Shown here in pieces: positions 12,677 to 59,614 of a stretch of DNA of 64,000 bases. The notes under the pieces are model-generated. The model worked only from the letters and a program-made list of their open reading frames with translations. It did no database searches and was not told the origin of the DNA. The stretch comes from a virus: positions 1 through 64,000 of IMG/VR virus record IMGVR_UViG_3300009155_000059, one strand, 5' to 3'. The position numbers were made by a program, and so were the translations under genes. Position 1 is the first letter of the stretch; each line of letters opens with the position of its first letter.

Positions 12677-12950
12677 GGAAATTTGGAACCTTTCTTACGT
12701 ATTACCAGGAAAGCCACCTAGTGAAGTGCTTATATTATATTTAGGTAACAAGAATAACAAATATTGCGGAGTGTTATCCACAGCGTTCGGTAGTGAAGAA
12801 GTCGCTGCGCTGAAAGCTTTAGCAGCAGAATGGAAAAACTACTCGGGTAAAATGCGATATCATACACTGAAAAACATGATTGATGTAAATGCTAATTACC
12901 GTGAATACAAAATGGAATACGCAAATATCATTAAAAAACACGTCCTATGA
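12675..12950 (+). CDS. Small protein of unknown function, embedded on the opposite strand
   Basis: A 91-residue plus-strand frame filling the only gap between the hub and primase genes. Its ATG (12675-12677) shares the CATG tetranucleotide with the ATG of the minus-strand hub gene. Its stop overlaps the primase stop by six bases, so both ends are shared with neighbours. The product is soluble and helical in its second half (EEVAALKALAAEWK). A weak GGTGG precedes the start. No family is recognised. The frame explains the gap well and no minus-strand frame competes. Confidence 0.6.
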   Translation: MEIWNLSYVLPGKPPSEVLILYLGNKNNKYCGVLSTAFGSEEVAALKALAAEWKNYSGKMRYHTLKNMIDVNANYREYKMEYANIIKKHVL

Positions 12951-13991
12951 TCTCTTTTTTTTGTCTTTTTCAGCTGCAGCTATCTGTCTTGTTATTTTAA
13001 TTAATGCCTGCATATCTAAAAGCTGTATGCTATCAGCCATCGCCCTTCTGATACTTGGTTTATCTAAACCGCACTCAGTGATACACTCGTTCCAATCTTT
13101 AGCCCCCGATGGTGGTATCGCATAGAACAACTTAAAGCCATGGGGTTTTAAGATGCCATGATTGGATATGATGCTCCTAAGCCCAGCTAAATCATTATCG
13201 ACCGCAAGAATGATGCCAGACTTAGGCTTAAGAAAACAGACTTTACGAGCTTGCTTCTCAGTTAGCATCGCACCGCCGATGGCACAGCATTGATCACCCA
13301 ACGTCATTTTATCGAAAATCGCCTCTACCAAAATCAGATACCGGTTTGGCTCACAATCATCGAAGCCATATAAAAAATCACTCTTACCAATCTTACTACC
13401 GTCCACATCGACTACATTAGTAGGAAAATTAAATGCTTTATTAATCACACTTCGGCTTTGCCAATAGACCAATTCACCGAACTCGTAGTATGGCCAAAGA
13501 ACCGTGACGCCATTGACATGCAGATTTCCTTTCGTTATCTCAACATCCGAGTATCCTCTTTTTAACAAGTACATTAAAGAGATCAATGACTGCTGGTCTT
13601 CTGTATCTCCACTGATCGGCTTGAACTCCGCAGGTATTGCTATGATTCTAGGATCCGGCTTGCTAATTTGCTCTTTGCTGACCGCATACAAGTCAGCATG
13701 GTCTCCTAATACTGACTTCAACGCCTCTCTGATACTGCACTTTAGGACTTTCGATACGAAATTCAGAAAACTAGTATTGCGTTTTCCAGTATGAGTGATT
13801 GGGCCTGCCCACTCGTTACCGCGCCAATCACCGCAGACACCTTTCTCGATGTTTATGCTAAAATGCTCACCGTCATCATACGTTAAGGGATTGTTTAATA
13901 CTAATTCTACGCCATCTTTCCTTTCCTTGAACTGAAACCGCTTAGCTACCCATGCTTTTATCTTACCAGCTGGTATGTTCGATTTTCCCAT
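12945..13991 (-). CDS. DNA primase, TOPRIM-type
   Basis: A 348-residue primase-like protein that would lay RNA primers for the DnaB-type helicase at 36 kb. The TOPRIM core is visible: VEAIFD (222-227) carries the catalytic Glu, then GGAMLTEKQ (239-247), and AVDNDLAG (263-270) supplies the D-x-D metal motif. The N-terminal 80 residues resemble a primase zinc-binding domain in pattern (HFSINIEKGVCGDW) but lack the four-ligand Cys set. It lies among virion genes, far from the rest of the replication module. T4 gp61 is of similar length (342). Confidence 0.8.
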   Translation of the reverse strand: MGKSNIPAGKIKAWVAKRFQFKERKDGVELVLNNPLTYDDGEHFSINIEKGVCGDWRGNEWAGPITHTGKRNTSFLNFVSKVLKCSIREALKSVLGDHADLYAVSKEQISKPDPRIIAIPAEFKPISGDTEDQQSLISLMYLLKRGYSDVEITKGNLHVNGVTVLWPYYEFGELVYWQSRSVINKAFNFPTNVVDVDGSKIGKSDFLYGFDDCEPNRYLILVEAIFDKMTLGDQCCAIGGAMLTEKQARKVCFLKPKSGIILAVDNDLAGLRSIISNHGILKPHGFKLFYAIPPSGAKDWNECITECGLDKPSIRRAMADSIQLLDMQALIKITRQIAAAEKDKKKRS

Positions 13992-28465: not shown

Positions 28466-29311
28466 ATGTTCTCGCTACTGCGAACGGACAATAACGTCCA
28501 CAAAGCCACTCTGAATTTACGAACTGCGTCGTCTAAACACAAATGCTTAATCCTTAGTGACGTTCACTGGGATAGCGCCTGGTGTGACCGCAAGATACTC
28601 ACTAAACACCTGGATGAGGCAAAAGCTGCCGATAGTCCTATCTTCATTTTCGGTGATTTCTTTGACGTAATGCAAGGTAAGTGGGACCCAAGAAAATCAT
28701 CCGAGCAACTTAGGCCAGAACACCACGGCCCAAATTACTTAGACCTGTTAGTCAACACTGCAAGCGACTATTTGCTACCTTACAAAGACCAGTTAGCTCT
28801 AATCGGCTACGGCAACCACGAAACAGCTATCATCAAACGCCACGAAGTCGATCTTATCCAACGACTCGTAGGTATCTTACGTAAGGATGGTAGCAAAGTA
28901 GCAACAGGCCAATATTGGGGTTTCGTCCAATTCATCATCCAGTATTCAACACATAGAGACAGCAAGATTCTGCATTACCATCATGGCTACGGCGGTGGTG
29001 GTGAAGTAACCAGAGGTCTTATTGATCACAGCCGAACCAGAGGCCAATACCAAGCTGACATATATGTTTCCGGCCATATCCACAGAAGGAACATGGACGA
29101 AAACATATTGCTACGCTGCAGTAGCAAAGGCAAAATTCGAAGCATAAACCAGATGTTTCTGCGCTGCAGCAGCTACAAGCACGAAGATAGCGGTTATCAC
29201 ATCGAGAAGGGCCGCGCAGCGCGGCCCATTGGCGGATGGTGGCTAGAATTTTCCATGTCACGCAGCGATGACGGAGTGTTTAGTGCTCAAGTAGCAGCAT
29301 TACCCACTTAA
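28466..29311 (+). CDS. Calcineurin-like metallophosphoesterase
   Basis: A 281-residue metallophosphoesterase with all five motifs: SDVHWD (31-36), GDFFD (63-67), GNHE (116-119), YHHG (171-174) and GHIHR (203-207). These bind two metals and hydrolyse phosphodiester or phosphomonoester bonds. The ATG at 28466 follows AGGAGGT by six bases; a GTG at 28445 is unlikely. A leader inverted repeat covers that ribosome binding site. The substrate (nucleic acid, cyclic nucleotide, NAD-like or protein) is unknown. It ends four bases into the dUTPase gene, convergently. Confidence 0.85.
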   Translation: MFSLLRTDNNVHKATLNLRTASSKHKCLILSDVHWDSAWCDRKILTKHLDEAKAADSPIFIFGDFFDVMQGKWDPRKSSEQLRPEHHGPNYLDLLVNTASDYLLPYKDQLALIGYGNHETAIIKRHEVDLIQRLVGILRKDGSKVATGQYWGFVQFIIQYSTHRDSKILHYHHGYGGGGEVTRGLIDHSRTRGQYQADIYVSGHIHRRNMDENILLRCSSKGKIRSINQMFLRCSSYKHEDSGYHIEKGRAARPIGGWWLEFSMSRSDDGVFSAQVAALPT

Positions 29312-29856
29312 TTCGTGCTGCCGAAACCGCCAACTCCCCTGGCGGTTTCATCAACTTTTCCCTCAAGCACGTTGATTTTTAGCGCATGAGTCAATAGCCC
29401 CTGCACTATTCTTTCGCCGTTTTCAATATATTGAATATTTTCATTGTGGTTAGTGATAACTGCCATCAATTCTCCGCGATAATCACTGTCGATTATACCC
29501 ACACTATTCGATAATCGTAACCCTCGCAAACTTGCGCCACTGCGAATAGCAAGCAAAAGAACGTAGTCTGACGAGAATTTAGTCTTAAAGCCGAGAGGAA
29601 TCATGATAGTTTCGCCAGGCTTTACGCCGATTTTGGTCGGCCCGCAGCGAAGCGCCGATAGCCTAGCTACGCTAAGCTTATCGTAATTACGAAATTCTCC
29701 TACGCATTTAAACCAGTGGCGTTTGCCATTTTCATCAATAGCAAATAAGTCCCTGTCTAAACATGCATGAAAGTCTAAGGATGCAGCGCCGACTGTCTGC
29801 TTGACTGGCAAGTCATAAAAATTGTTCTCCAAACGCTCCAGCACAAGTTCTACCAT
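29308..29856 (-). CDS. dut: dUTPase (deoxyuridine 5'-triphosphate nucleotidohydrolase)
   Basis: A 182-residue trimeric-type dUTPase that hydrolyses dUTP to dUMP, keeping uracil out of DNA. All five motifs are present: AASLDF (24-29), RSGAS (105-109), GIIDSDYRGE (120-129), RIVQG (149-153) and the C-terminal RGVGGFGSTN (173-182). A 35-residue insertion between motifs 1 and 2 makes it longer than the usual 150. Its ATG overlaps the stop of the PhoH gene (TAATG). Confidence 0.93.
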   Translation of the reverse strand: MVELVLERLENNFYDLPVKQTVGAASLDFHACLDRDLFAIDENGKRHWFKCVGEFRNYDKLSVARLSALRCGPTKIGVKPGETIMIPLGFKTKFSSDYVLLLAIRSGASLRGLRLSNSVGIIDSDYRGELMAVITNHNENIQYIENGERIVQGLLTHALKINVLEGKVDETARGVGGFGSTN

Positions 29857-30822: not shown

Positions 30823-31332
30823 ATGATCATCGCAGATCACGTTAGCTTATCATCTGGGCAGTCGTTTCGTAACATAGAAATCCTAGAACGACAAGACTAC
30901 GACATCTACAACATACCAATGATTGCCAAAGAGATGACCTTTGCATTCATGGCCGACGGCCAAGTGATTGTACTTAATCAATGGAATCTGCGAGTGGTAA
31001 CTCTCGAAAAGAAAGAATTAAAGAACGAAAAATATGCGAAATTTGAACGACTAGTACTCGAAAAAGATATCATCTACCAACATGGCCGTATCATATACAA
31101 AGAATACTGGGAAGAGCTAGGTATAAAGAACCTAATCGGTCCAGAGTTATGTCAGTTCGTATGGACGTCATCAGATGGCTTGATGCTAAGCCATGACGCA
31201 AACATCTGCGCTCTAATGTTCAAAGACACAAGAACCGGACATACTGACAAAATCGTACCACGCTCCGCAATACACACGTTTACCGACATCAAATCAACGC
31301 CACACACTAAGACAATTGCGTCGGAAGGTTAA
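30823..31332 (+). CDS. Protein of unknown function
   Basis: A 169-residue plus-strand protein of no recognised family, mixed alpha/beta, with charged middle (KKELKNEKYAKFERLVLEKD). The ATG at 30823 has GAGGG ten bases upstream; a TTG three codons earlier is less likely. It has its own candidate promoter and ends 26 bases inside the convergent exonuclease gene. Separate control from the replication operon suggests an early or regulatory gene. Confidence 0.55.
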   Translation: MIIADHVSLSSGQSFRNIEILERQDYDIYNIPMIAKEMTFAFMADGQVIVLNQWNLRVVTLEKKELKNEKYAKFERLVLEKDIIYQHGRIIYKEYWEELGIKNLIGPELCQFVWTSSDGLMLSHDANICALMFKDTRTGHTDKIVPRSAIHTFTDIKSTPHTKTIASEG

Positions 31333-32146
31333 TGAATTCTCGCTTTATTAATGCTGAATTTTGATACATGGTGCTGAGTTTATACTTGATGAGCTCAGCA
31401 TTAAATTCAGAAATGTTCGTGGCCGCTGGCTCAAGTAGTACATTGGCCACGTAGATTTTATTTTTTACAATTTCAGGATTCAGGCTTAAATCGATTAGTT
31501 TTCTATTAAATTCGAATTGCTCATTGCCCGCTTTAGCTAGGAAACCACCAATTGCATCCTCTAACACAAGCTTCTCGGCTTTCACAGGACCAATGCCTTT
31601 ATATCCATTGATGCTGTCACTACTATCTCCCATTAAACACTTGACCAATATGGGGCTGGCTTTTGGAGTGGCAAGCATACCTTTCTTGTGATGATAAATC
31701 TTAACATGCTTGTACTTAAATGAAATCTGCGTCATATCTCCATCTGTGCTAAATATAACAACAGGATCCGGCTCTAGGATAATTGATGCAGCAAAAATCA
31801 AATCATCAGCTTCCTGCCTCTCTGCCCAATATTGTCTAACTGGCAATTTCGTAAGTACTTTTCTAAGAATGTCGATGCATCGTTGCAGACTACTGCGAAA
31901 ACCATTTACATAATCTGAATCATCACGGTCTTTATATCCAGGGTACAGATAACGCCTCCATACCTTATTGCGGTCTTCATCCCAGAACACGTGGACATGA
32001 TTGGATTCTGCAGTCTTCTTATATTCTATGAGATGTGTCACGAACATGTGTACTGCTTTATCGATCATGCCTATTTCGTTATCTGCGTTAGCATATAAGC
32101 AGCGGTATAGCAGGTTTTTGCCATCGATAAGAGCGTGTTTGTACAT
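31307..32146 (-). CDS. 5'-3' exonuclease / RNase H-type FEN nuclease
   Basis: A 279-residue FEN-family nuclease like T4 RNase H, which removes RNA primers and 5' flaps. Metal-binding acidic motifs are visible: ALIDGKN (Asp8), EADD (112-115), STDGD (133-137) and LMGDSSDSI (171-179). KGIGPVKAEKLV (183-194) is the helix-three-turn-helix. ATG 32146 is chosen, because the longer frame runs through the hairpin of the intergenic gap. It lies directly downstream of the SSB gene. Confidence 0.88.
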   Translation of the reverse strand: MYKHALIDGKNLLYRCLYANADNEIGMIDKAVHMFVTHLIEYKKTAESNHVHVFWDEDRNKVWRRYLYPGYKDRDDSDYVNGFRSSLQRCIDILRKVLTKLPVRQYWAERQEADDLIFAASIILEPDPVVIFSTDGDMTQISFKYKHVKIYHHKKGMLATPKASPILVKCLMGDSSDSINGYKGIGPVKAEKLVLEDAIGGFLAKAGNEQFEFNRKLIDLSLNPEIVKNKIYVANVLLEPAATNISEFNAELIKYKLSTMYQNSALIKREFINLPTQLS

Positions 32147-32163
32147 GGTTACTCTAAATACGA

Positions 32164-32191
32164 CAATGGCCCCGGGATACCAGGGCCATTG
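32164..32191 (-). terminator. Hairpin between SSB and exonuclease genes
   Basis: A 9-bp stem CAATGGCCC / GGGCCATTG with a 10-base loop begins 11 bases after the SSB stop on the minus strand. The following TCGTATTT is only weakly T-rich, so a partial terminator that lowers expression of the exonuclease relative to SSB is the likeliest role. Confidence 0.5.
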
Positions 32192-32201
32192 CACAATCTT
32201 A

Positions 32202-33188
32202 CTAGTCAAGCGTAGCTAATAACGAATCAAGCGAATCATCTTCATCGTTTGTGGTGACAGGAGCTTTTGATTTCTTTGTCTCCGCAATCGGTGGTAACTC
32301 CTCGTCATCATTGACAGGAGCCTTAGACTTCGGTGTGGGCTTCGGCTGCTCCTCTTCCTCATCATGGAAGCCTACTTTGTTATTACGTTCATCAAGGCTA
32401 TCGTCGCCTTTGATGATTTTATCTGCCAATTGCTTGATCTTGCTTGGATCAGGCGTCTCTACCTTAGAATGCAGGTCGTGGCGTAACTTCAAGATGCCCT
32501 TGATGGCTGCTTCATTAGCTGAACCGTCTGCGTTTTTAGCAATCGGAATTGGTACTCCTCCGCTCGCTAAAAATCTACTGGTTTTATAGCTATTCTGGCG
32601 ACCCTGCTCGGTGATGTCGAGTTCGAATAGCCAAGATTTATACTCATCGAAGAAAATCCCATGGGCCAATGGCTCATCTGGATCTCCTGCGTTGTCACTC
32701 ATCAGGCACTTGGTCCAAATTTCGAAACACGTTTTCGAGGCATTATACCACTTAACCGTATTACGTAGTGCCTCAGGATTCTGTTTCACGTTAGGGAAAA
32801 AGATGTTAACCATATAGTTCTGGTTAGGCATCCAGTCCTTAACTATTTGAGTCCTCTTAGTCTTATCGTCCTTATGGCAATCTTTTAATAGCGCAAAGCC
32901 GAAATCACACACATCGCAATGCGAATTATCCCAGACCCGCGGGCAAGGATGAGGTCGATTCTCGATCCAGTGATTGCCGTGCTTCACAAAGAACTGGTCC
33001 ATTGATTTAGGTGCTTGTCCACCTTTGATAATCTGACCTGCTCCTACAGGTGGCAAAATATAGAACCTGTATTTAAAATTGTCGCCAGGATTCTTTACCT
33101 TCTCTGGGCGAAACTCATCAGGGTCCTGCCTCTTTCCGTCGCCAGCTGATTGCAGCTTTTTGCGAATATCGTTTATATCGTAGCTCAT
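32202..33188 (-). CDS. Single-stranded DNA-binding protein, gp32-like
   Basis: A 328-residue gp32-type SSB. The core region includes FKYRFYILPP, then zinc ligands in HPCPRVWDNSHCDVC (about residues 81-95), as in T4 gp32, and aromatic-rich strands (KSWLFELDI). The C-terminal 80 residues are acidic (DDEELPP, DEDDSLDSLLATLD), the usual interaction tail. Two ATGs (33191, 33188) follow AGGAG; the second has the better spacing. It protects single strands and recruits partners such as the exonuclease and recombination proteins nearby. Confidence 0.88.
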   Translation of the reverse strand: MSYDINDIRKKLQSAGDGKRQDPDEFRPEKVKNPGDNFKYRFYILPPVGAGQIIKGGQAPKSMDQFFVKHGNHWIENRPHPCPRVWDNSHCDVCDFGFALLKDCHKDDKTKRTQIVKDWMPNQNYMVNIFFPNVKQNPEALRNTVKWYNASKTCFEIWTKCLMSDNAGDPDEPLAHGIFFDEYKSWLFELDITEQGRQNSYKTSRFLASGGVPIPIAKNADGSANEAAIKGILKLRHDLHSKVETPDPSKIKQLADKIIKGDDSLDERNNKVGFHDEEEEQPKPTPKSKAPVNDDEELPPIAETKKSKAPVTTNDEDDSLDSLLATLD

Positions 33189-33200
33189 CATAGTCTCCTT

Positions 33201-33710
33201 TTAAGTGTTGAAGCGCTCTTGGACTTTCATCTTAGCTAATTGGGCAATGTTATTGTTTTTTAATTCCACAGATTTTAACAAGCCGAATAGCTTGCTTACC
33301 CGTGAATCAGCATTGAAGCCTAAATCTTCAAGCCGAGTGACTTCCTCGTCTAATTCGACGATCGCTTTTATCTGCTCCACAGTTAATCTTACCTTTTCTG
33401 AACCTCCCTTCTCGTAACATTCTTTAAAAATCTGGCTCCTACGTAGTTTAATACTACGTTCGATGACAGATAATTGCTTTTTGGCTTCTGCATAAACTTC
33501 CGATATGAACGCATACTGAGCTGGCGTGTCACGCAAGTGTCGTTCAATATTATCAACATCAATCTCTACGAAAGTCGGAATGTCGACCGAATGCAAATGC
33601 TTAGCTTTGCTATTGTCGTCTACGAAGCCTATCTTAAATCTACACAATGTGCTTTCGAGAATCTCTGGAGGCACATTGTCAATGAACCATTCCGCTTGTC
33701 CGTCTGCCAT
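33201..33710 (-). CDS. Possible UvsY-like recombination mediator
   Basis: A 169-residue mostly helical protein. Residues 60-165 form long charged helices (RDTPAQYAFISEVYAEAKKQLSVIERSIKLRRSQIF, with GLLKSVELKNNN near the end). This pattern of helix pairs resembles phage recombination mediator proteins encoded next to gp32-type SSBs, though UvsY is shorter (137). Motif evidence is weak; it rests mainly on location upstream of SSB and on composition. Confidence 0.4.
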   Translation of the reverse strand: MADGQAEWFIDNVPPEILESTLCRFKIGFVDDNSKAKHLHSVDIPTFVEIDVDNIERHLRDTPAQYAFISEVYAEAKKQLSVIERSIKLRRSQIFKECYEKGGSEKVRLTVEQIKAIVELDEEVTRLEDLGFNADSRVSKLFGLLKSVELKNNNIAQLAKMKVQERFNT

Positions 33711-33856
33711 TATTCCTCTCCTGCGTCTTCTTTGGCCTTAAAAGCCACTCGATTAAAGTCTGAGGCTGGAATAGGCTTATTGGATCCAAAAGTCTTCTTA
33801 CTGACTCCGGACGCCTTCCTCGCCTTCTGCAACAGTTTACGCTTCTGGCGCTTCAT
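33710..33856 (-). CDS. Short basic protein (48 residues), unknown
   Basis: A small frame filling the gap between the polymerase and the UvsY-like candidate. It begins MKRQKRKLLQKARKASG and ends EDAGEE, so it is strongly basic at the N-terminus and acidic at the C-terminus. CAGGA lies five bases before ATG 33856. Its stop forms TAATG with the next gene and its start overlaps the polymerase stop by 20 bases. The tight coupling supports a real gene. It may be a nucleic-acid-binding peptide. Confidence 0.65.
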   Translation of the reverse strand: MKRQKRKLLQKARKASGVSKKTFGSNKPIPASDFNRVAFKAKEDAGEE

Positions 33857-35006
33857 CTGGATCCTGCGCGAAATCATCTGCATATCCCCTTATGATCTTA
33901 TACGGCTTCCATTTTTTCCACTTCTTGCCCACATTGACTCTGACAGGAAATGATGGATCATCTGGTAAAATACCATTAAACGGGTTTACCATTATTCTTG
34001 CCACTTTATCTATCACTTCATTCAACACCCCTACATGATTAGGAACACTTAACACGACAGAATCATGCATGTCACAGATGAAATAAGTCGGGAAATCATG
34101 CTGTACCTTCGCTATTACATTGTGCATGCCATGAGCTACACTACCCTGCAGCATTGCATTCATAATAGCGTTCTTGGATCGATCAGCTATCTGCTTGTAA
34201 GCCCGACCTAAAATCGTGTAAAACACACTGTCGGGTAACATCAATCTGTGACTCACATCCAAAATCCAGTTTGATAACCCAGGAAAGCATGACTTCACAA
34301 TTACGTCATGCCCGTTTAAACTATTGATAGATTTTAAAAGCCTAATTTTACATTGTTCTCTGGTTAACACTTCATCGAATTCATTAGCTCTATCTGCCAT
34401 ATACTGGTATGGGTCAGAATCCGAAAAGCAATTTATAAGCCCTTCGTCTCCGGACAGTAATCCAGCCATGCGCACATCAGCTGAAATCCAGTCTAACTGC
34501 AGATAGACAGATGATTCGTCATTCCTATCATGTGATACACAATCGTGATGCGGATAATTCTGAAGGTCGAACACAGAGCATTTAGTGCGGCTCGTAAAAG
34601 TCTCTAAAGAAAAAACCGGCGACATACGCTTATGATTAATAAATATACCACGTTGATTTATGGTCTCATAGGCATTGATACACCTAGCCATTAAATGCCT
34701 GTATCTGTTAAAATCAGCGTCACCATCAGGCTTACAGCCACCTTCGAAGTAATAACACATTTGTACATTGGAAATCTGGAACAGCCTAGCCGTCCTTACA
34801 TCATCATAACCGACCCGGATGTTTTTAGCTAAAGCTGAATCGATAAAACCCTTTAACTTATCGATCTTGTCAAATACTTCTTTTAATTTCGCTTTGGATC
34901 CTGCTAAGAAAAGATCTATCCTTTTGATCACAGCTTTGGTGCTGATCTCTACGAACTCAGGCCTACCACTGCGATTGTAGGCGGCATGAACGAAAATAGA
35001 TTCCAT
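33837..35006 (-). CDS. Compact family-A DNA polymerase (Pol I-like), exonuclease-less
   Basis: A 389-residue protein with family-A polymerase motifs but no 3'-5' exonuclease domain. The thumb/palm junction has FTSRTKCSVFDLQNYPH, corresponding to the T-x-x-x-R and LQN elements. Motif A is LDWISADVRMAGLLSGDE (catalytic Asp). The O-helix is degenerate (REQCKIRLLKSINSLNG; Arg and Lys kept, Tyr lost). Motif C is CDMHDSVVL (HD kept, Glu of HDE replaced by Ser). Usual Pol I enzymes are 600-900 residues. It may be the C-terminal part of a split polymerase, a specialised enzyme or a DpoZ-like one. Confidence 0.7.
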   Translation of the reverse strand: MESIFVHAAYNRSGRPEFVEISTKAVIKRIDLFLAGSKAKLKEVFDKIDKLKGFIDSALAKNIRVGYDDVRTARLFQISNVQMCYYFEGGCKPDGDADFNRYRHLMARCINAYETINQRGIFINHKRMSPVFSLETFTSRTKCSVFDLQNYPHHDCVSHDRNDESSVYLQLDWISADVRMAGLLSGDEGLINCFSDSDPYQYMADRANEFDEVLTREQCKIRLLKSINSLNGHDVIVKSCFPGLSNWILDVSHRLMLPDSVFYTILGRAYKQIADRSKNAIMNAMLQGSVAHGMHNVIAKVQHDFPTYFICDMHDSVVLSVPNHVGVLNEVIDKVARIMVNPFNGILPDDPSFPVRVNVGKKWKKWKPYKIIRGYADDFAQDPDEAPEA

Positions 35007-35021
35007 GCCGCCATCAATACA

Positions 35022-35411
35022 CTAAACTACGAAATGAATTGGTTTAGGATTATGCTTATCAGCTTTACGCATATCAGACACCACTTGGTCTACTTCCCCT
35101 GACACGCGATGCTCAGCAAATGGGTCGTTCTTGGTGATTGTGTGAATGTCCATATCTCTCCTAGTTCCAGCTCTATCTAAGAAGCCGTTGCCGCGGATAT
35201 AGCACTGTATATTGTAGTCGTGGAAAGATTTTTCACCTTTGGTCGAACCACAGCGTGGACACACAACCGCATCAAGCAATTCTTGATCTGACGGCACCAT
35301 CGGATGACTCGTCTCATACAACACTAATTCTGGATATGATTCTGATTTTTCGCCAATCCCTGCCTGGATCGCCTTCTGCTCACAATCCAGGCATATGTAT
35401 ATGTAATTCAT
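35022..35411 (-). CDS. Zinc-ribbon protein
   Basis: A 129-residue protein with YICLDCE (residues 5-11) and CPRCGSTKG (about 50-58): two C-x2-C knuckles that form a zinc ribbon, the second followed by a DYNIQCYIRGNGFLDR strand region. Function unknown; ribbons of this FmdB-like look often bind nucleic acid or regulators. Its ATG (35411) overlaps the upstream stop (TAATG). It lies between the polymerase and the GroES-like gene. Confidence 0.6.
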   Translation of the reverse strand: MNYIYICLDCEQKAIQAGIGEKSESYPELVLYETSHPMVPSDQELLDAVVCPRCGSTKGEKSFHDYNIQCYIRGNGFLDRAGTRRDMDIHTITKNDPFAEHRVSGEVDQVVSDMRKADKHNPKPIHFVV

Positions 35412-35830
35412 TATACCCTGCTGCACAAGATGCTTTTATGATTAAGCAAAATGACTGACGAATCTGTCGGATCTACAGAGTCGGACACTATTCCAGACTT
35501 GCCAAATTTAACATAATCACCTGGCTCTACATTCAACACATCACTAGCTATACTCAACACTACGCCTTCGAGTTTAAAAGCAGGTGCATTGTTAACATTG
35601 GTGATGATGATAGATTCTTCTACCGGTTCACACTTAACTATGACCAAACCGTTTAACGGCTTCCATTTAAGCAAATTCGATACTTTCTCCGCTCTGTCAT
35701 CTGGGCTACAGCACTTCACTGGCTTAGTGTCGCAAGTAGAGAAATTTTTCAGCGGCCCATTGCTATCGATCTGCTCCGGCGCAGACGCTACTTCTTCACT
35801 CTGTAATTTAAGCGATTTTGGAATAGACAC
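35411..35830 (-). CDS. GroES-like co-chaperonin candidate
   Basis: A 139-residue protein. Residues 55-139 have the layout of GroES: LNGLVIVKCEPVEE, a mobile-loop-like stretch IIITNVNNAPAF, then EGVVLSIASD, VEPGDYVKFGKSG and the closing NHKSILCSRV, which matches the GroES end (E-D-I-L-A). The first 50 residues are a low-complexity extension. T4 gp31 is a functional GroES substitute for capsid folding, so the same role is plausible. Start is GTG (35830) with GAGGAG upstream. The domain match is by pattern only. Confidence 0.55.
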   Translation of the reverse strand: MSIPKSLKLQSEEVASAPEQIDSNGPLKNFSTCDTKPVKCCSPDDRAEKVSNLLKWKPLNGLVIVKCEPVEESIIITNVNNAPAFKLEGVVLSIASDVLNVEPGDYVKFGKSGIVSDSVDPTDSSVILLNHKSILCSRV

Positions 35831-36015
35831 TACTTAGTCTCCTCTGGCTGGACTCGATCAAATGACACTTTCACCTTACGTTGAGTGATAGCTGGAGCAT
35901 TCGGAACTTGCACTTTAAACTTACTGCCATCAGCACTAAGCGTAAAACCAGTTCTTTCTATTGTATCCGCCAACGTCCTACTCACATCAAGTTCGATTAA
36001 AACTTTCATTTTCAT
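35830..36015 (-). CDS. Small protein, unknown
   Basis: A 61-residue beta-rich protein (MKMKVLIELDV ... RKVKVSFDRVQ). The ATG at 36015 overlaps the helicase stop (ATGA) with AGGA six bases upstream. It sits in the helicase-GroES-like-polymerase string. Function unknown. Confidence 0.5.
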   Translation of the reverse strand: MKMKVLIELDVSRTLADTIERTGFTLSADGSKFKVQVPNAPAITQRKVKVSFDRVQPEETK

Positions 36016-37349
36016 AAAGATTCCTTCACTCTCATTAGGTCGTACAAAATCTCACAATCAATCGTTTTGTTACGCTCACCGTTCCGATTTTTGGCAATGA
36101 ACATCCTAAGTCGCGGTGGAGTAGCTACTCGATCCTGATAAGATTGGTTCAAACTAATTACGTAGTCAAGCGCAAATTGTTTAGCAAAGCTATCTGCCGC
36201 CTTTGTCATGTCAATATTCTCAGCGCTATCCGTCGCACCTGCCCGATTTGTCTGAGTAGCGGTAAAAACCACAGTATTGGTGTTCTTAGCTAAAGCACGA
36301 ATTTCAGTAGCCACATGCTTTTGACGCACATAATCATCTTTATTATAGGCCTTGTGACGACTGACCATGAGATCCATATAATCTAAAATGACAATATCGG
36401 GCTTAAAGCTTTTAGTCCTCTTAAGATTATCTATTAAGGTATAGATGGTGTCTACACTATGCTCATCTGGAGCATATTCATATATAGCCACGTCCTTCTT
36501 AAAGTAATTCTTCACTGTATCAACTTTATTGACACAACGTTCTTTATGATTCTTGATTTGACTAATTGGTACTTGTGACATTGACGAAAGCATACGTGCT
36601 GCAGTCTTTTTAATATCTAGCTCAAAGGAAACGAATAAAACATTCTGGCCAATAGTGCCGTCCACAGAAGCAGCCTCAAGGCTATGAATGGCCGTCTGGC
36701 ACAGCACGATACTTTTGCCTACATTCGTGGGCGCCAAATAGCAGACTACTTCTTTTGGTGATGGACCACCATCATTCAAGCACTTATCTAACTGCTTGAA
36801 ACCAGTTGTAACATGAAGGTTGGCAGATTCCTCGAATAATAGGTCCACGTTCTCTAACAAAAACATCCCACCTTCGCCCACATCAGTTATCTTATGCGCT
36901 TCGTCTACTATCTTTTCCAATGCATCATAGTCTCCATCTTCAAAGCACTGGATCGCTTCAGGGCTGTAGATCATGGAAAAGGCTTTCTTCCTGGCCCACG
37001 ACAGCATTTTTTCTTTAAGAAAAGGGATTTCTCGGTGGTCAGATTCCCGCTCTATAAGCGCTAAGATAGGCTCAAAGTTGTCATCAACAGACACCTGCTC
37101 ATACGCTAACTCACGCACTAACCTCCTCGTCGGCACAGTATTATATTTTTCATAGTAATTCAGTATTAGCGCTACCACTATCTGACATTCGCCGCGGGCA
37201 AACATATCAGGCTTAAGAAATCTTGCAATAGTGCCGAAAAATTCTGGATAATCAAGACTAAGACTGATGATGCCTTCTTCGTAATACTGAGTAAATTCAG
37301 GATTAATCTCCGTCTTGTCGTCCAGAATTTCCTGAATACTGTCTTCCAT
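36012..37349 (-). CDS. Replicative DNA helicase, DnaB/gp41-like
   Basis: A 445-residue hexameric replicative helicase. The N-terminal helical part (about 25-150) is followed by the RecA-type ATPase with Walker A APTNVGKS (206-213), the Glu-containing FVSFELD strand, Walker B PDIVILDYMDLM (about 318-329) and FTATQTNRAG. It unwinds duplex ahead of the fork and would partner with the primase. Length is close to T4 gp41 (475). Confidence 0.9.
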   Translation of the reverse strand: MEDSIQEILDDKTEINPEFTQYYEEGIISLSLDYPEFFGTIARFLKPDMFARGECQIVVALILNYYEKYNTVPTRRLVRELAYEQVSVDDNFEPILALIERESDHREIPFLKEKMLSWARKKAFSMIYSPEAIQCFEDGDYDALEKIVDEAHKITDVGEGGMFLLENVDLLFEESANLHVTTGFKQLDKCLNDGGPSPKEVVCYLAPTNVGKSIVLCQTAIHSLEAASVDGTIGQNVLFVSFELDIKKTAARMLSSMSQVPISQIKNHKERCVNKVDTVKNYFKKDVAIYEYAPDEHSVDTIYTLIDNLKRTKSFKPDIVILDYMDLMVSRHKAYNKDDYVRQKHVATEIRALAKNTNTVVFTATQTNRAGATDSAENIDMTKAADSFAKQFALDYVISLNQSYQDRVATPPRLRMFIAKNRNGERNKTIDCEILYDLMRVKESL

Positions 37350-37673
37350 TTAGAATGTCTCTCCACACTGCGCCGCCAGCGCATGGTCGATGCTTAATAG
37401 CTGCTTCTGCAGAAATTGCTTGGCCAGTGTCAACGCTTCGCAATATAATATGAATTCATCCTCTCTAAACCATAACACGTCGCCAGTAATTAAGCTGTTT
37501 TTGTCCGAATAAGTCCCCAATGATTGACTGGCTGTGCGAGTGCTATTGATCTTATAGATCCAATTGATACCAGAAGATCGCACTCCACTGATAGTGATAG
37601 GATCTAGGAAACCAGAAGTAGCACTAGACCTGTGGTATACTGTCTGGCCGACTTCATACAGCGGATTGCTCAT
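37350..37673 (-). CDS. Small SH3-like protein, unknown
   Basis: A 107-residue protein. The first half (YEVGQTVYHRSSATSGFLDPITISGVR) has the look of a small beta-barrel, and the last third is helical (EALTLAKQFLQKQLLSIDHALA). ATG 37673 is chosen because the earlier codon is TTG. The gene overlaps the end of recA by 20 bases and lies just upstream of helicase, so it is likely co-translated. Function unknown. Confidence 0.5.
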   Translation of the reverse strand: MSNPLYEVGQTVYHRSSATSGFLDPITISGVRSSGINWIYKINSTRTASQSLGTYSDKNSLITGDVLWFREDEFILYCEALTLAKQFLQKQLLSIDHALAAQCGETF

Positions 37674-38766
37674 CGACAAAACCCCCGTCTTCCAATCGAT
37701 CTTCCTCTGTATCTTCAGTTGGCTCTATGCCTCCATCGACGATCAATTCATACAACTTAGCTCTAACACGTTCTATTAGCTTATCATCATCTCTGAATGC
37801 TTTAACCACTGCAGCCTCGCCATTGCCTATAGTCTGATTATCAAACTTATAATGCGAGCCTTTAGTGATCAATACGCCCTTCTTTTCTGCAGTTCGCACT
37901 AAACTAGTGACCCAATCGATACCGTGAACTGGTCGTTCCTTCCGACCGAAACAAATATCATACTCAGCTACTTCAAATGGTGGCGCCACTTTGTTTTTAC
38001 GCATAGTAAGATGTGCAACATTGCCTACTATTTCTTGTCCTACTTTGACAGCTTCCTTTCGCTTTACTTCAGCCCTCACTGATGCATAGAACTTGAGCGC
38101 TTTGCCGCCTGGCGTTGTCTCGGGATTGCCAAACATTTGGCCCACTTTCTCACGGATCTGATTAACGAAGATAATCGTTGTACCTGTGTTATTACATTTC
38201 CCCTTTATCTTGCTGAGACCCTTGCTCATCAATTGCGCTAATGCTGCCATCTGTTGATCACCTATATCTCCATCTAACACCTTCTGAGGCACCAGCGCTG
38301 CAACCGAGTCGACTATAATCAAATCGACTAAACCTGAATCTATACATTGATCTATTATGCTAAATGCATCTTCACCTGAATCTGGCTGACTAATCGCCAT
38401 AACATCGACATCAACGCCAATCTTGATAGCCCACGAGCGATCTAAAGAATGTTCGACGTCTATGTAAACCACAGATCCATAGGCTTTCTTGGTAGCAAAA
38501 TAATGCTTTTGGCATGCTTTAGCCAATTGCAGGCAGGTCGTAGTTTTACCACTGCTCTCTGGACCCCAGATCTCAATAATCCTACCGATCGGAATGCCAC
38601 CGCAGCCAATTGCAAAATCAATGCTAGCTACCCCAGAGCTGAAAACCTGCACCGGACTGATAGCATTCTTGCCTCTTTTGATCGACCCACTTCCGATAGA
38701 TTTATCGATTCTCGCAAACAGCTCATCTAGGTTTTTAGGTTTAGCTGTCTTCTCTGCCTTCGCCAT
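37654..38766 (-). CDS. recA: RecA recombinase, bacterial type
   Basis: A 370-residue RecA, forming filaments on single-stranded DNA for strand exchange. Walker A is GPESSGKT (68-75). DVEHSLD follows, and the L2 loop region FVNQIREKVGQMFGNPETTPGG is close to the bacterial RecA consensus, unlike the more divergent T4 UvsX. The C-terminus is acidic (EDTEEDRLEDGG). ATG 38766 has GGAGG upstream. Confidence 0.92.
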   Translation of the reverse strand: MAKAEKTAKPKNLDELFARIDKSIGSGSIKRGKNAISPVQVFSSGVASIDFAIGCGGIPIGRIIEIWGPESSGKTTTCLQLAKACQKHYFATKKAYGSVVYIDVEHSLDRSWAIKIGVDVDVMAISQPDSGEDAFSIIDQCIDSGLVDLIIVDSVAALVPQKVLDGDIGDQQMAALAQLMSKGLSKIKGKCNNTGTTIIFVNQIREKVGQMFGNPETTPGGKALKFYASVRAEVKRKEAVKVGQEIVGNVAHLTMRKNKVAPPFEVAEYDICFGRKERPVHGIDWVTSLVRTAEKKGVLITKGSHYKFDNQTIGNGEAAVVKAFRDDDKLIERVRAKLYELIVDGGIEPTEDTEEDRLEDGGFVDEQSAV

Positions 38767-39007
38767 ATTCAGATAACCTCCCAAGTAGCCCGTGGATCTT
38801 ATGCATCGACTGATTAATGTCTACAGCCTTCAATACATCAGCCTGCGGTATCCTTACCACAGCCATACCCTTTGTTATTAGCAAGTCATCTTCAACGATA
38901 TTACTTACTGTCCAGTAGCCCTTTGGGCTTATTTCAGCTGGATCAACGCTGATGTATTTAACGTTCTTCGTCGTTTTAAGGAGTACAAGGTCGAATTTGG
39001 CGAACAT
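38741..39007 (-). CDS. Small protein upstream of recA, unknown
   Basis: An 88-residue protein whose last 26 bases overlap the start of recA, so translation is probably coupled. Beta-type N-terminus (FDLVLLKTTKNVKYISVDPA) with KAVDINQSMHKIHGLLGRLSE near the end. No family recognised. The gene upstream ends in a terminator, so this may be the first gene of the recA operon. Confidence 0.5.
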   Translation of the reverse strand: MFAKFDLVLLKTTKNVKYISVDPAEISPKGYWTVSNIVEDDLLITKGMAVVRIPQADVLKAVDINQSMHKIHGLLGRLSEYGEGREDS

Positions 39008-53100: not shown

Positions 53101-56100
53101 CAATGCTTAGGAGGAAAATCGCCACTCGGATAAACCTGATTCGCTAAGATGTAGACTTCTATGGTATCCAGAATGTTAACTGGATCTTCGTAACTGGGAA
53201 AATAAGCGGTTAATTCGTCATTAATCACTGCGCTCTTACTTTGCGGAATGCTCCAAAGCCAATTGGCGAATCCTTCCACACTGCTTGTCTTATTTTCAGT
53301 CACTCCTTCCATAAGCTTCTTCGTCAAATTCTGCGACAAGATGCTGACTTGCGCCACCGTGCCTAATCCCTGTTGCTTCCAGAAGTCAACAGTATCGCCA
53401 TAATTGCATGTGACACTAACGACTTTTGGTGGATCGCCAATGCACGTATGCCCTTCGCAGGTGGGCAGTAGAAATGTATTCTTAAACTCTGATGGTGTTG
53501 TGGGATTCCGATAAATTAATTTCAAAAATGCGTTAAATATGTTCAATGGTAAACGAGGTATATCGACAGATTCAGGAGTGCCCCACTTTAGTGTCATTTC
53601 TATGTTCTCGACCAGTCCACACACTATTTCTTTGGTCTCGCACACAATAAGATTATTAACCGCTATCTCCTTGCTATCATAAAAAGGACTGACAAAAAGC
53701 TCAATCAGACACGGACCACCCACAGCTTCAAACAATAAAGTAACTGGGCCAGTCCGATGTATCGGATATTGATATGAGACACCAGTGAATCCTATCGTAA
53801 CACAAAAATTGCCCTGACTGCTTACTTGATCTAAAATAACCGCATCAATCGTAAGCGTGTAGGTGCTACCAGCTATCAAATCTAGATATTGCCTGTATGT
53901 AGATCCACCATTGGACACCAGAATATTATCGAAAGATTTATTGCGGTTCGACCAGTTGCTAATGCCACCAAATGGCACGTTATGAACCGACAAAAGTGAA
54001 TAATCTTCAGGGCACGACAAGTTAAGTTTAATGCCGATAAAGTTATCGACTTCCTGAGTGATACCAAGTGCAACACTAGCGCCAGCGAGATCTATGTCGA
54101 GCCAACTGGTACCATTGAACCCAATCAAATGGCCACTATCTTCATCGAGCGTCACCTCGATTAAAGCAACATCATAAACCTGCGTGGCGTTACTCAATCC
54201 ATCAAAGAAATATTCGGCAAGACCATCAAATCTCAATATCTTTTTAGTGAGCGCATCTAAAATGTAAAACCGATTGGTAAATGAATCGAACCCGACAAAT
54301 GAGCCAACATGCGGTAGAACTTCTGTGGCCTGGTTGCCATCAAGTTGCCGCAACGCTATAGTATATCGTAGATTAGATCCACCATCACCATTGACAGCAA
54401 AGGTCAAGAAATCTACATCGACCGCTTTCGGACTATGAAACCTTATGCTGCCTACCGGTATGACGCCATATGAAGAAATGTCTAAAACATATTTTTCTGT
54501 AACTGCTGATAAATCTGACACTTGGATCGATAACACCGATAACGTAGTGCCGACTTGGGTTAACAAACTAAGTTGCAGATACTTATCGAACGCTAACCCT
54601 ACTATCTCGTAATCATAAGTGTACTTAGCGACCAGCCTATACTCAGCCAACTTTATCACTTGCAGTTGATTGCCTGATACGACCGCTAAAAAGTCATTAA
54701 CCGTATCATAGGCACTAAAATCGACCGCAGAGGAAATGGCCAAATTAGCCACATTATTGCCTTTGACCGATTTAACATATTGGCCAGTCTGATATAGGTA
54801 TTGTTTATCGACATTATTGGCGACACTAATGAATAGCCCATCGTAGTACTTTTTGATTTGACCATGGATTATGCTGAATAACTCAGCTGCATTGAACACA
54901 GTGTACGGTTCAACGCCATGATTGCGATAAACATTAAAAGCTTTACTAAAGTCTGATGTCAACTGTCCATTGGTGACAATCGGACTAATGTTAACGCTGC
55001 AATTTACCGCATTATCCAAAGCGCCTTCAAAATTTATGACGCTGTTGTCAGACAGTGTAAAGCTGCGATTAGAGATGACGAATAACTGCAAATACGCCAG
55101 TGATCTTCTAACAAATCGACACGTCTTGATGTCACTAGCCCGCACTACCACGCTATCTGTTATTACCGTACCGTAAGAGAATGACGATTGCCTTATTAAA
55201 TTGTTTATAACTATATCATACGGACAGATCCGACTATTGCTCGTAGTCAGCAGCAGCTTCGAATTGTTCACGTTTAGATAATCGACAATTGACGGTGTAA
55301 CACACGAATACTTGACCAGACTACTATTAGTAAACACCACTGCGTCGACACCAAACAAGATTGCATGAGTTCCGGAAGTTAAAGTCCCCACGCCAGTTGA
55401 CACGAAAGACAAGCCACTGTTGGTCAATCCTTTGCTAACTGTCGTCGCCCACCCAGGTGTTACTGCAGCAGAACTGCCGTCGAAATCGTTAGACCTGGTG
55501 AGAACATACGGTTTACTGCCGCTACCTAAATCAGTTACGACATAAATCCCATTAGCTTGCTGAAGCAATTGATCTTTGACTAATATACGATCATTAAGCA
55601 GTGGCTGATAGCCGTCTATCCTCATCAAGGTGCGATTCTCACTAGCCGTCAATGTTGCTCCTACTCCAAGGTTGCCATTATGATATGATGCTTTCAATGA
55701 ACTCACTGTTGCACAGGCTACCGGAAGATGATATGTGATCCCGGCGGAGTCACCTGTGGTGATAATACTGGGTCCTGCCAAATGCTGTATGGTCCATTGA
55801 GTCGACGTATCAATAACATTATCAATTGGGGTTAAGAAAGTGTAGCTCGCCCTTAATCCTCCACCATATCTCTCTTTCATGCTTACGATCAATTGATCTA
55901 AATATGTGGCAAGATCTCCAACTTGCCGTAAAGCCGGTGTGCTCAGATCTATGATAAAATGTACGTCAAGCGGCGTCGATTCATTCTGACACGCTAAGGC
56001 TTGATCATCGATGCAATTGCCAAGCAACGCATTATCTGTTATCCGCGGAAATGTACTCCTGCTTGTTTTATTGACCTTATCTTGTGTAATTCTGACAGCA

Positions 56101-56285: not shown

Positions 56286-56389
56286 GACGATTCACTTTGG
56301 CTACTGTAATGTATCACACTTACAATAGATTTAGTTCATATAACATCCAAACGATACTAACCAAAGCCATTGAAATTACAAATGGGCCA
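56286..56389. other. Short gap with no recognisable feature
   Basis: A 104-base AT-rich gap between the adhesin-like gene and the next upstream minus-strand gene. It must contain the start signals for the large gene, but no convincing promoter or hairpin is seen. Confidence 0.3.
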
Positions 56390-56824
56390 CTACGTTTGCA
56401 CTTCGACCCATTTCTTGAATAGCTTCAATATCCTAGACCGTTCTAACGATGCAGCTTGCTTTGTGTCGAACAAGCAAGATTCAGGTATTTCGACGTCGTC
56501 TTCATTTGTATAAATGAATTCACCAGTATGCTTACATCTTTCAATGCCCTTCACACAAAACGGTTGTACTTCTACGCTTGCGGTTATAACCATTATTAAA
56601 TCTTCAAAATCATTCCAGCTGACACGAGGTAGTACGCTTGTGTATTTCCATAGATGCTTGAAAGGCCCACTAGAATATAGGACTTTGGGGTGGACTTCTC
56701 GCATCCATTTGTCTGCTGACGCTAGTCTAGGAATTTTTCCAGTTGGCTGTAACATTACATGATATGCAAGATCTCCGATTTTGTACTTTGCCAGCTCCAT
56801 AACTGATACGATTTTCTTTTTCAT
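56390..56824 (-). CDS. Protein of unknown function
   Basis: A 144-residue soluble protein. The middle (KYTSVLPRVSWNDFEDLIMVITASVEVQPF) is beta-type and the end is helical (AASLERSRILKLFKKWVE). The start overlaps the upstream stop by four bases. No family recognised. It belongs to the short operon leading from the PurZ-like gene. Confidence 0.5.
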   Translation of the reverse strand: MKKKIVSVMELAKYKIGDLAYHVMLQPTGKIPRLASADKWMREVHPKVLYSSGPFKHLWKYTSVLPRVSWNDFEDLIMVITASVEVQPFCVKGIERCKHTGEFIYTNEDDVEIPESCLFDTKQAASLERSRILKLFKKWVEVQT

Positions 56825-57033
56825 CCAAGAATCACACGATTTATTGCCTGGTTTACCATAGACTCTGCTACCTGTTTAGTCACACCTTGAATTACTGTCG
56901 ACCATCCAGCTGACTCTAAAATTTCTATTTGATATAGACCACCATCAACCGATTGTCCTGGGCCCGGAACGATCCTAACTGCCTTTGATCCTGCCGCTTT
57001 TATTTTCAATACTGCTTCATTCATGTTAATCAT
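56821..57033 (-). CDS. Small protein, unknown
   Basis: A 70-residue protein. GGAG lies seven bases before ATG 57033. A helix-strand pattern (EAVLKIKAAGSKAVRIVPGP, then GWSTVIQGVTKQVAESMVNQA) suggests a compact alpha/beta fold. Overlaps the upstream gene by eight bases. Function unknown. Confidence 0.5.
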   Translation of the reverse strand: MINMNEAVLKIKAAGSKAVRIVPGPGQSVDGGLYQIEILESAGWSTVIQGVTKQVAESMVNQAINRVILG

Positions 57034-57730
57034 AATATCGCTCCAACCTGCTTAATACTACATGCATGTTATCTACCTTAGTCTTACCTTGCCGCACTAC
57101 CATAGAATGAGCACACCCCACCAACACGCCGTCGCCGATATCTGAAATGCATCCGGCAAAATCCAATTTACCGTCACCTAGCCATTGTGTTCCATGGCCA
57201 GGTAACACATCAACAGTATCTATTATGGCGACACTTTTCATAGGCAAAGACTTCCTAATACTAATATTGATATTATTCAAGATCAACATAGCTTCTAACT
57301 TATAAGACCTGAATTGTTTTGAATGATTAAGTAACCACCAATAATACGGACACACCACAGTCACACCTAATGGTATTAAAGAACTAGCGAACTCCATCGC
57401 TCTATCATAATGATCATCGTAGTGCTTTCTACTGTCGAATTGTAAGCTCAGCCACTTGACTTTATAATAACCTAATAATCCAGTTAGCTTTGTATTAGTT
57501 AAGTCCTCAACCGTGATATTAAATCCGACCAATGCTAAGTTCGATGCTATCAATTTTCCTTTAATATGCTTGTGCTCATCGTCAGACAACTGAGTAAATG
57601 ACTTATACTTATGTTTCCGATACCACACGCGTGAAAAGGACAAGGCCTTGGTGTGAGCCAAGGCCTCGTCAAGATCATCGCTAATCTCATCTAAATATGC
57701 GAATTTATTAGATGATGCAAACGTCATCAT
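57026..57730 (-). CDS. Protein of unknown function next to the PurZ-like gene
   Basis: A 234-residue alpha/beta protein overlapping the PurZ-like gene by 23 bases. It has KWLSLQFDSRKHYDDHYDRAMEFASSLIPLGVTVVCPYY in the middle and IDTVDVLPGHGTQW plus DFAGCISDIGDGVLVGC near the end, a possible Rossmann or TIM-like arrangement. No family recognised. Tight coupling to the purine enzyme suggests a related metabolic role. Confidence 0.5.
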   Translation of the reverse strand: MMTFASSNKFAYLDEISDDLDEALAHTKALSFSRVWYRKHKYKSFTQLSDDEHKHIKGKLIASNLALVGFNITVEDLTNTKLTGLLGYYKVKWLSLQFDSRKHYDDHYDRAMEFASSLIPLGVTVVCPYYWWLLNHSKQFRSYKLEAMLILNNINISIRKSLPMKSVAIIDTVDVLPGHGTQWLGDGKLDFAGCISDIGDGVLVGCAHSMVVRQGKTKVDNMHVVLSRLERYYD

Positions 57731-58829
57731 AAGCTGGCCCAGTCCCTACCATTACTACTGGTAACCTCAATTCATCTTCGATCTTGTGCACGAACGACTG
57801 CACTTTTTGAGGTAACTTATTGTACTCCTTCACCCCGTAACATGACCAATCGATATAATTAACGAATGTCAGTACCAATTTTGTAGCTCCATTGCTTAGA
57901 GCCGCCTGTTTGGCCTGCTGCGCGCTAAATGAGAACATCCGGCGCTGACGCTTAGTGACCGTGGTAATTTCGATACCACGAATGACATCAGGCGGAGCGC
58001 CACATTCAGCTGCTATTTGCTCTATTGTTAACTCGTGTTGATCGGGGTAACAATCTCCGCTGTAGCCTATGACCTTACCGTCCTCGATTACGTTACCAAC
58101 TCGAATAGGATGACATCTAAGCACTAAGTACACATCACCCATACACTGATGTGGCAATCCAAGGTCACTAAGATTTTGTATTGCGGTGGTGCTACGTGAA
58201 GTACATTGGGGATAATGACTACCATGATTAATATCTAATCCGAACCCTTGGCTACCCTCATGGAGAATTGTCATCCCACCACGCATCATAGTAGTAAGAT
58301 ATTCTGGAAGCGACATTCCACTACATTGTTTGCTTGCCATCAATGGTGCTATTTCAGCATAATCTCTAGCGAGTTTGACGTCCTGCTTGCGCAATATTTT
58401 GTCCGATAAACAGGTGGCGCAACCCTGCATTGTGCTTGCCACATGTTTAGTGCTATCTGACCCACACGCTTCTCGCTCCTGATGCTCTTTCGTGATCACA
58501 GCAGCACGATCATGAATCATTAACTTAATGTCGTGACCAACCTGATCTAATTCCGCCTGCAACGTGTCAAGCTTAAATGCGCTAGTAGCACCCATAATAA
58601 CGGTCGGATCATATTTATCTAACCATTTACGCATTATAGTTGGCGCTGGTAAAGCCTTGCTGACAAATTTGCTCCCATCTGGTGATACAGCTGTATGGCC
58701 AGCATTCGCCATATTCGTGTTGGTAAGTATCTCAGGTCTGTACCTGTACACTAAGGCGCTGCTGACATGACCTTTACCTGTGCTACCGTAGTTGCCGTCT
58801 GTTACCACATTGAATTTTCCCTTTTGCAT
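57708..58829 (-). CDS. PurZ-like adenylosuccinate-synthetase homologue
   Basis: A 373-residue PurA-superfamily protein. The nucleotide loop reads DGNYGSTGKG; PurA has GDEGKG with a catalytic Asp, here Ser16 (GSTGKG, 15-20). NAGHT (42-46) keeps the catalytic His. EGSQGFGLDINHG (191-203) and the STTAI element match the substrate region, and VGTGPAYDD the C-terminus. PurZ proteins, which make the 2-aminoadenine precursor from dGMP and aspartate, carry this loss of Asp, as I recall from the S-2L literature. So the likely reaction is dGMP + Asp + NTP, not IMP. Family members of other specificity cannot be excluded by eye. Confidence 0.75.
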   Translation of the reverse strand: MQKGKFNVVTDGNYGSTGKGHVSSALVYRYRPEILTNTNMANAGHTAVSPDGSKFVSKALPAPTIMRKWLDKYDPTVIMGATSAFKLDTLQAELDQVGHDIKLMIHDRAAVITKEHQEREACGSDSTKHVASTMQGCATCLSDKILRKQDVKLARDYAEIAPLMASKQCSGMSLPEYLTTMMRGGMTILHEGSQGFGLDINHGSHYPQCTSRSTTAIQNLSDLGLPHQCMGDVYLVLRCHPIRVGNVIEDGKVIGYSGDCYPDQHELTIEQIAAECGAPPDVIRGIEITTVTKRQRRMFSFSAQQAKQAALSNGATKLVLTFVNYIDWSCYGVKEYNKLPQKVQSFVHKIEDELRLPVVMVGTGPAYDDVCII

Positions 58830-58885
58830 TTATAACTCCTGCTGTAACAAAAAGTAGACATATCCCGGTGCTACCAATACTAGGA

Positions 58886-59578: not shown

Positions 59579-59614
59579 ATGCTGCTCCTGAAGTGATTAA
59601 CTGTGTATTTATTC

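Follow-up and report, generated by a model that had tools for sequence, protein, structure and literature searches.

A short family-A DNA polymerase, predicted to be thumbless and exonuclease-dead, in a T4-like recombination–replication gene cluster of large phages

The window analysed here, a stretch of 64,000 nucleotides from a 75,177-base virus record that is itself a linear fragment, carries on its minus strand an ATG-initiated open reading frame (33837..35006) for a 389-aa family-A DNA polymerase, which the ORF, family searches and a structural model predict to be thumbless and exonuclease-dead; the plus strand of the same interval reads through stops. The original prediction had placed a 389-residue family-A polymerase at this position, and reading frame, length and family all stand, while the strand had to be added. 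Specifically, the Pfam DNA_pol_A model matches the 389-aa protein alone with an E-value of 2.3e-7 (30.5 bits, just under the 34.3 cut-off), PHROG 17 'DNA polymerase' matches it at 2.6e-9, each of the 61 aligned relatives (61 of 61) gives a DNA_pol_A match (best 2.5e-20), and a PDB search with the family profile found Taq Pol I at 1.8e-16. The features that define family A are present, namely the motif A Asp, the motif B RxxxK, the motif C HD, the presumed equivalent of Q849 and the Klenow fold. A relaxed motif-A DNA pattern gave one match in the window and none in 100 shuffles, and comparison with a 75%-identical relative (L018) yielded a pN of 0.155 against a pS of 0.879, with synonymous sites saturated. 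The polymerase gene is under strong purifying selection, and these values, together with the shuffles, exclude a chance origin of the polymerase signal.

The gene is part of a minus-strand cluster with the order RecA, small ORF, DnaB-like helicase, two small ORFs, zinc-ribbon-like protein, polymerase, UvsY-like protein, gp32-like single-strand binding protein (SSB) and FEN. On this strand, the RecA/UvsX recombinase (37654..38784; Pfam RecA, 1.3e-93) and the DnaB-like replicative helicase (36012..37349; PHROG 19, 6.7e-73) lie on one side of the polymerase, together with the small zinc-ribbon-like protein (35022..35426; weak Pfam and NCBIfam zinc-ribbon matches), whose gene directly precedes the polymerase in most loci. 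On the other side are the UvsY-like recombination mediator (33201..33710; PHROG 231 and model), the gp32-like SSB (32202..33191; Pfam gp32 at 1.5e-5, just under the cut-off, and PHROG 1192) and the FEN-type 5'-3' exonuclease (31307..32209; Pfam 5_3_exonuc_N, 1.3e-20). The RecA, helicase and SSB neighbours named in the original prediction are therefore those that Pfam and PHROG recover. In loci with enough flanking sequence, the same genes recur: DnaB in 50/50, RecA in 44/45, the UvsY-like gene in 56/61, the gp32-like gene in 48/53, FEN in 46/51 and the zinc-ribbon gene in 52/59. PHROG 231 (UvsY) matches 38 of 43 UvsY-like members, and in the PDB the 19 best matches of the UvsY-like protein model (pLDDT 88.3) are T4 UvsY, with a TM of up to 0.80 on the target and E-values of at least 1e-3. 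Judging by profiles and models, the cluster is the T4 gene set for recombination-dependent replication into which a thumbless PolA has been inserted.

A GroES-like small protein is also encoded inside the replication cluster (35411-35830, minus strand), and a dUTPase-like protein of 182 aa outside it (29308-29856, minus strand). The C-terminus of an SbcC-like protein lies at 63528-63995; DinG-like helicase and SbcD-like phosphoesterase ORFs, read from translations, follow outside the window (locus L127, record positions 65312-68168).

A first scan of IMG/VR returned 8 loci and a profile scan 79, corresponding to 65 distinct proteins that share 25-75% identity with the window polymerase and lie on contigs of up to 408 kb. 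In counts over these 65 rows the window row also represents L017, an identical copy; two proteins cut at the 5' end (L060 and L062) are inside the counts and outside alignment A2, which combines the window with 60 of the 62 candidate references (L044 and L052 left out). Not every one of the 33 large records counts as independent: at these genes G000 and G001 represent a single phage, and an identical short PolA is also found within the pairs G011/G020 and G018/G028. Among 50,697 isolated-phage records, tblastn detected no close relative, the 5 weak matches all being annotated as ordinary DNA polymerase I, and among 84,980 prokaryote genomes (bacteria and archaea) 4 stretches fitted the pattern, none of them a relative.

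Every relative for which both ends are present retains the short form (368-467 aa from stop to stop), each with its own exonuclease remnant, which contradicts the idea that the protein is a split C-terminal half. A split polymerase was likewise rejected on the grounds that no relative exceeds 467 aa stop to stop and that PF01612 occurs in 0 of the 33 large records. The DnaQ-type exonuclease PF00929 was found in 7 of the 33 records and is absent from the window's own. In conclusion, the comparison of sequences argues that the short polymerase is a genuine gene, neither a split half nor decaying.

An AlphaFold2 model built from 61 natural sequences (pLDDT 88.1, pTM 0.85) was superposed with VIA-align on KlenTaq, residues 1-368 falling on KlenTaq 302-832 with a Z of 24.2 and an rmsd of 4.7 over 331 aligned residues; the palm, for which the original prediction had looked to a structure prediction, is present. 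Foldseek against BFVD returned other PolAs at a TM of about 0.4-0.65 among the matches listed. The more striking reduction, absent from the original prediction, is the loss of the whole thumb. The slot where a thumb would be expected from alignment and model, G120-R140 (34587..34649, minus strand), measures 18-21 aa in 65/65 family members versus 122-198 aa in nine ordinary PolAs, and between residues 119 and 176 the model contains no helix of four residues or more. The thumb subdomain is thus predicted, by alignment and model alike, to be absent from the short PolA.

The description of the protein as being without an exonuclease domain was nearly right, but a degenerate N-terminal domain of about 90 residues is still there: DSSP of the model and the VIA alignment point to residues 1-90 (34737..35006, minus strand) as a putative remnant of an RNase H-like 3'-5' exonuclease. 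The positions of D355 and E357, which we take to be the exonuclease residues of Pol I, correspond to a gap in the family sequences, in a weakly aligned part of an alignment of 66 rows, one of them an ordinary PolA (LBerry); no exonuclease active site is predicted to be left. The fingers are shortened as well, the slot after the O helix comprising 18-19 aa in the four members measured (19 in the window) against 35-55, a loss of about 16-36 residues. At the other end of the chain, model and charge count define a basic and aromatic C-terminal hairpin (residues 358-373, containing GKKWKKWK; 33888..33935, minus strand), whose residues 358-372 have a median net charge of +4, as compared to -3 to 0 for the 15 C-terminal residues in nine ordinary PolAs. 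This conserved hairpin is an addition that could bind DNA.

In the family alignment, R140, D172, D177, K220, N283, Q287 and D315 are invariant in 65/65 rows, and R216 (64/65), R179 (62/65) and H314 (62/65) are nearly so. We take R140, D172, D177, R179 and R216 to be the equivalents of R668, D705, E710, R712 and R754 of Pol I, and K220, N283, Q287, H314 and D315 those of K758, N845, Q849, H881 and D882. On the minus strand, motif A (residues 172-179, DWISADVR, with D172 and D177 invariant) maps to 34470..34493, motif B or O helix (residues 216-229, R216xxxK220xxxL224xxxN228) to 34320..34361, and motif C (residues 314-316, HDS) to 34059..34067. The aspartates of motifs A and C (D172 and D315), the loss of the O-helix Tyr and the change from HDE to HDS had all been read correctly in the original prediction. 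Specifically, residue 228, at the position of Y766, is Asn in the window protein and in 37/65 rows, Tyr being kept in 28/65, and residue 316, at the position of E883, is Ser in 55/65. Furthermore, the E710 equivalent is Asp in 65/65 and the F762 equivalent mostly Leu (47/65). K225 was considered as the catalytic lysine of motif B for its local likeness to KAIN of Pol I, and rejected: it is Lys in only 33/65 rows, while R216 and K220 have the right spacing and are conserved in 64/65 and 65/65, and HMMER aligns K220 there. As for HDS, it occurs also in the phiVC8 DpoZ and in the T5 polymerase, as described in PMC8599892, and is therefore not a mark of a dead enzyme.

The 33 large records all contain PolA (33/33), with no sign of a second copy; Pol III alpha was found in 25 of them and PolB in 0. 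In the relatives, the Pol III matches commonly fall on two distinct ORFs, which in G007 cover positions 42-439 and 440-1043 of PHROG 405. In both G007 (70263-75747) and G008 (55428-60885), the records behind L009 and L010, Pol III alpha is split between one ORF with the PHP domain (~475 aa) and a second, catalytic one (~900 aa); as both also carry PurZ, they are apparently Z phages with a family-C replicase. Within the window's 75-kb record, neither PF07733 nor tblastn with ORFs from the Pol III regions of three relatives revealed a Pol III, and neither PolB nor a second PolA was found; a DnaG-like Toprim primase is encoded at 12945-13991. The notion that another replicative polymerase is encoded elsewhere thus holds for the 25 of 33 relatives with Pol III alpha, but not within this fragment, whose fragmentary state would account for the absence of Pol III; we assume that the window's phage has as its main replicase a Pol III alpha encoded beyond the 75-kb record. 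Because Pol III alpha is present in 25/33 large relatives, the short PolA is most likely accessory, a term that rests on the relatives, since Pol III was not seen in the window's own record.

The window also encodes a PurZ-type adenylosuccinate synthetase (57708..58829, minus strand), identified by NCBIfam and by the motif GSTGKG, with Ser in place of the PurA Asp. Its best NCBIfam match is amino_Aden_PurZ (1.5e-62, 211 bits, under the 300-bit cut-off), and the protein is diverged from known PurZ, the best counterpart in isolated phages being about 35% identical. Ser for Asp13 is given as the PurZ hallmark in the available text of PMC12884076. PF00709 is found in 22 of the 33 large records, 21 of which have the PurZ serine (GS.GKG or GSSAKG); in the remaining one, G013, the pattern GS.[GA]KG did not find the motif. 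Since 21/33 carry this serine, many of the large relatives are putative Z-DNA phages. In each of the pairs G011/G020 and G018/G028, PurZ is present in one record and missing from the other, which is shorter, so that its absence there is probably due to record incompleteness. A second PF00709 protein, with Asp (GDGGKG), accompanies the PurZ-type one in the 408-kb record G009 (L095), and in G016, G024 and G025 the PurZ gene has a DnaQ-like exonuclease (PF00929) as a neighbour, no more than about 1 kb away. The phiVC8 DatZ-type hydrolase was detected in 0/33 large records, in a search without a positive control. Literature phrase searches returned no relevant paper on Z-DNA jumbo phages with a Pol III replicase, and neither 'polymerase III' nor 'jumbo' occurs in the available text of PMC12884076.

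All together, these data lead us to propose, with moderate confidence, that the protein is an accessory family-A polymerase for short-patch synthesis in recombination-dependent replication, cut down to an exonuclease remnant, the palm and shortened fingers. The possibility of a specialised polymerase, one of several in the original prediction, is supported by the predicted anatomy, by catalytic conservation, by the fixed gene cluster and by Pol III alpha in most large relatives, and the accessory reading has the same basis. The short PolA would be catalytically active and, being without a thumb, would synthesise DNA in a distributive, error-prone and non-proofreading manner; engineered thumb deletions in Klenow lower both processivity and frameshift fidelity. 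In T4-style recombination-dependent replication it would synthesise short patches, elongating invading 3' ends and filling gaps once FEN has removed primers or flaps, with partners (SSB and UvsY) and the basic hairpin at its own C-terminus gripping the DNA instead of a thumb. In such a scheme the short PolA and the separate FEN gene may together do the job of one polypeptide in bacterial Pol I. Catalysis could be weak, given the substitutions of F762 by Leu, Y766 by Asn, E710 by Asp and E883 by Ser.

The gene cluster would fit just as well with a main polymerase of recombination-dependent replication, or with a structural role. That the short PolA serves the phage as its main or even sole replicative polymerase, made processive by partner proteins, would suit its position beside the replicative helicase and a 75-kb record with no PolB, Pol III or second PolA; however, that record is a fragment, 25/33 relatives with the same short PolA have Pol III alpha, and the loss of thumb and proofreading would be odd for a replicase, so we regard this as unlikely. 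Hardly more credible, and if anything a shade less so, is a catalytically dead polymerase fold serving as a scaffold in a recombination complex: shortened fingers, the replaced O-helix Phe and Tyr and the change from HDE to HDS would fit it, but the invariance in 65/65 of the metal-binding Asp pair, the motif B Lys, N283 and Q287 is the opposite of the pattern that loss of catalysis gives, and HDS is shared with the phiVC8 DpoZ and T5 polymerases described in PMC8599892. The top PDB matches are DNA polymerases and a DnaG-like Toprim primase is present at 12945-13991, both of which make it improbable that the enzyme uses ribonucleotides, as an RNA polymerase or a primer-extending enzyme. This reading draws on the Asp at the E710 position in 65/65 and on HDS, which is the motif C of T7 RNA polymerase too. 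The same idea has been raised for divPolA2 (PMC11348598).

A dZTP-selective, DpoZ-like polymerase of a Z phage was the link to the PurZ-like enzyme drawn in the original prediction. The co-occurrence with PurZ is real, in the window's record and in most large relatives, HDS is common to the phiVC8 DpoZ (PMC8599892), and a joint clade with DpoZ was not rejected by the AU test (p 0.44). Nevertheless, the connection to DpoZ is not supported: the family profile scores the phiVC8 DpoZ at -0.1 and the PMBT28 DpoZ at 1.8 bits, at the level of noise, against 52.1 bits for E. coli Pol I, the highest of the comparators. The Tyr-to-Phe change in the O helix, which PMC8599892 describes as common to both DpoZ clades, is missing at residue 228, which is Asn in 37 and Tyr in 28 of 65 rows. 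With PurZ, this residue is Asn in 14 and Tyr in 7 records, and without PurZ, Asn in 4 and Tyr in 7 (counted over 32 of the 33 records, without G001, which duplicates G000); a rule linking residue 228 to PurZ was thus rejected, both residues occurring with and without it. DpoZ, moreover, combines a 3'-5' exonuclease with a polymerase domain, and the backtracking and exonuclease route proposed for it in PMC8599892 needs an exonuclease, of which the short PolA has a remnant only. We therefore consider a dZTP-selective enzyme very improbable.

Returning to the accessory polymerase, a bolder version can be put forward tentatively: across a large clade of jumbo phages, many of them with 2-aminoadenine in their DNA and with a Pol III replicase in split form, a naturally thumb-free PolA might be the polymerase dedicated to strand invasion and gaps in recombination-dependent replication, with UvsY, SSB and the basic hairpin as its grip. 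The family illustrates how small a part of a family-A polymerase can persist under strong selection, and it raises the question of what keeps such an enzyme on DNA without a thumb. With the gene fixed in position between helicase and UvsY, the old question of which polymerase begins synthesis in recombination-dependent replication becomes testable outside T4, and the same records point to many putative Z-DNA jumbo phages with a replicase that is apparently of family C (Pol III) and not DpoZ.

Compared with the Klenow part of bacterial DNA polymerase I, the short PolA has the same fold, motifs, residue set and FEN partner (here a separate gene), and differs in the lost thumb and active exonuclease and in the shortened fingers. 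With the phiVC8 DpoZ, as described in PMC8599892, it has in common family A, a phage with PurZ and the HDS motif C; DpoZ, unlike it, is a full 633-aa enzyme with exonuclease and thumb, and with Tyr changed to Phe in the O helix. The divPolA2 of barbaviruses, by the description in the available text of PMC11348598, keeps the palm and has neither a thumb homologous to that of other polymerases nor an exonuclease, but it has an unrelated N-terminal domain and a variable neighbourhood, with PolB as the replicase. A literature phrase search found no paper on a 'thumbless' polymerase.

The closest published system is divPolA1 of Flavobacterium phage immuto_3-5A and relatives. As described in PMC11348598 (Virol J 2024), divPolA1 has a conserved palm, a truncated thumb and an inactivated exonuclease, lies in a replication gene cluster, all traits shared by the short PolA, and in 14 phages accompanies a regular A, B or C polymerase as an extra PolA; their genomes measure 155-190 kb, whereas contigs of the short-PolA family reach 408 kb. 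We compared a set of 17 of 80 IMG/VR loci plus immuto and 2 GenBank records. The immuto protein (441 aa) resembles the short PolA in its fingers slot of 19 residues and in the adjacent SSB, RecA, FEN and DnaB genes, but its thumb slot has 38 residues versus 18-21, and it has H for D177, Y for R216 and YDA for HDS. It scores 11.2 bits against the short-PolA profile, below Pol I, with a profile–profile probability of 90.5; of its cluster proteins, DnaB scores 145, FEN 82 and RecA 30 bits against those of the short-PolA family, and the SSB, at 0.0 bits, has no detectable relation to the family's SSB. Diverged relatives of the immuto protein, at 29% and 27%, were seen in a 484-kb uncultured phage (L142, LR756508) and in Microcystis phage Mel-JY01 (L143), which annotates it only as hypothetical.

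In a palm tree, the short-PolA family and the immuto group form two separate clades, each with 100/100 support; the tree does not place the short-PolA family among PolAs, and the AU test rejected a joint clade neither with divPolA1 (p 0.56) nor with Pol I (p 0.50) nor, as above, with DpoZ. One published divPolA1 subgroup might be the short-PolA family, set apart here from the immuto group, because five other published divPolA1 genomes lie outside the collection compared. Common descent with long divergence and parallel reduction would both fit the likeness. In conclusion, the short-PolA family appears from the palm tree and slot lengths to be a clade separate from immuto divPolA1 and more reduced.
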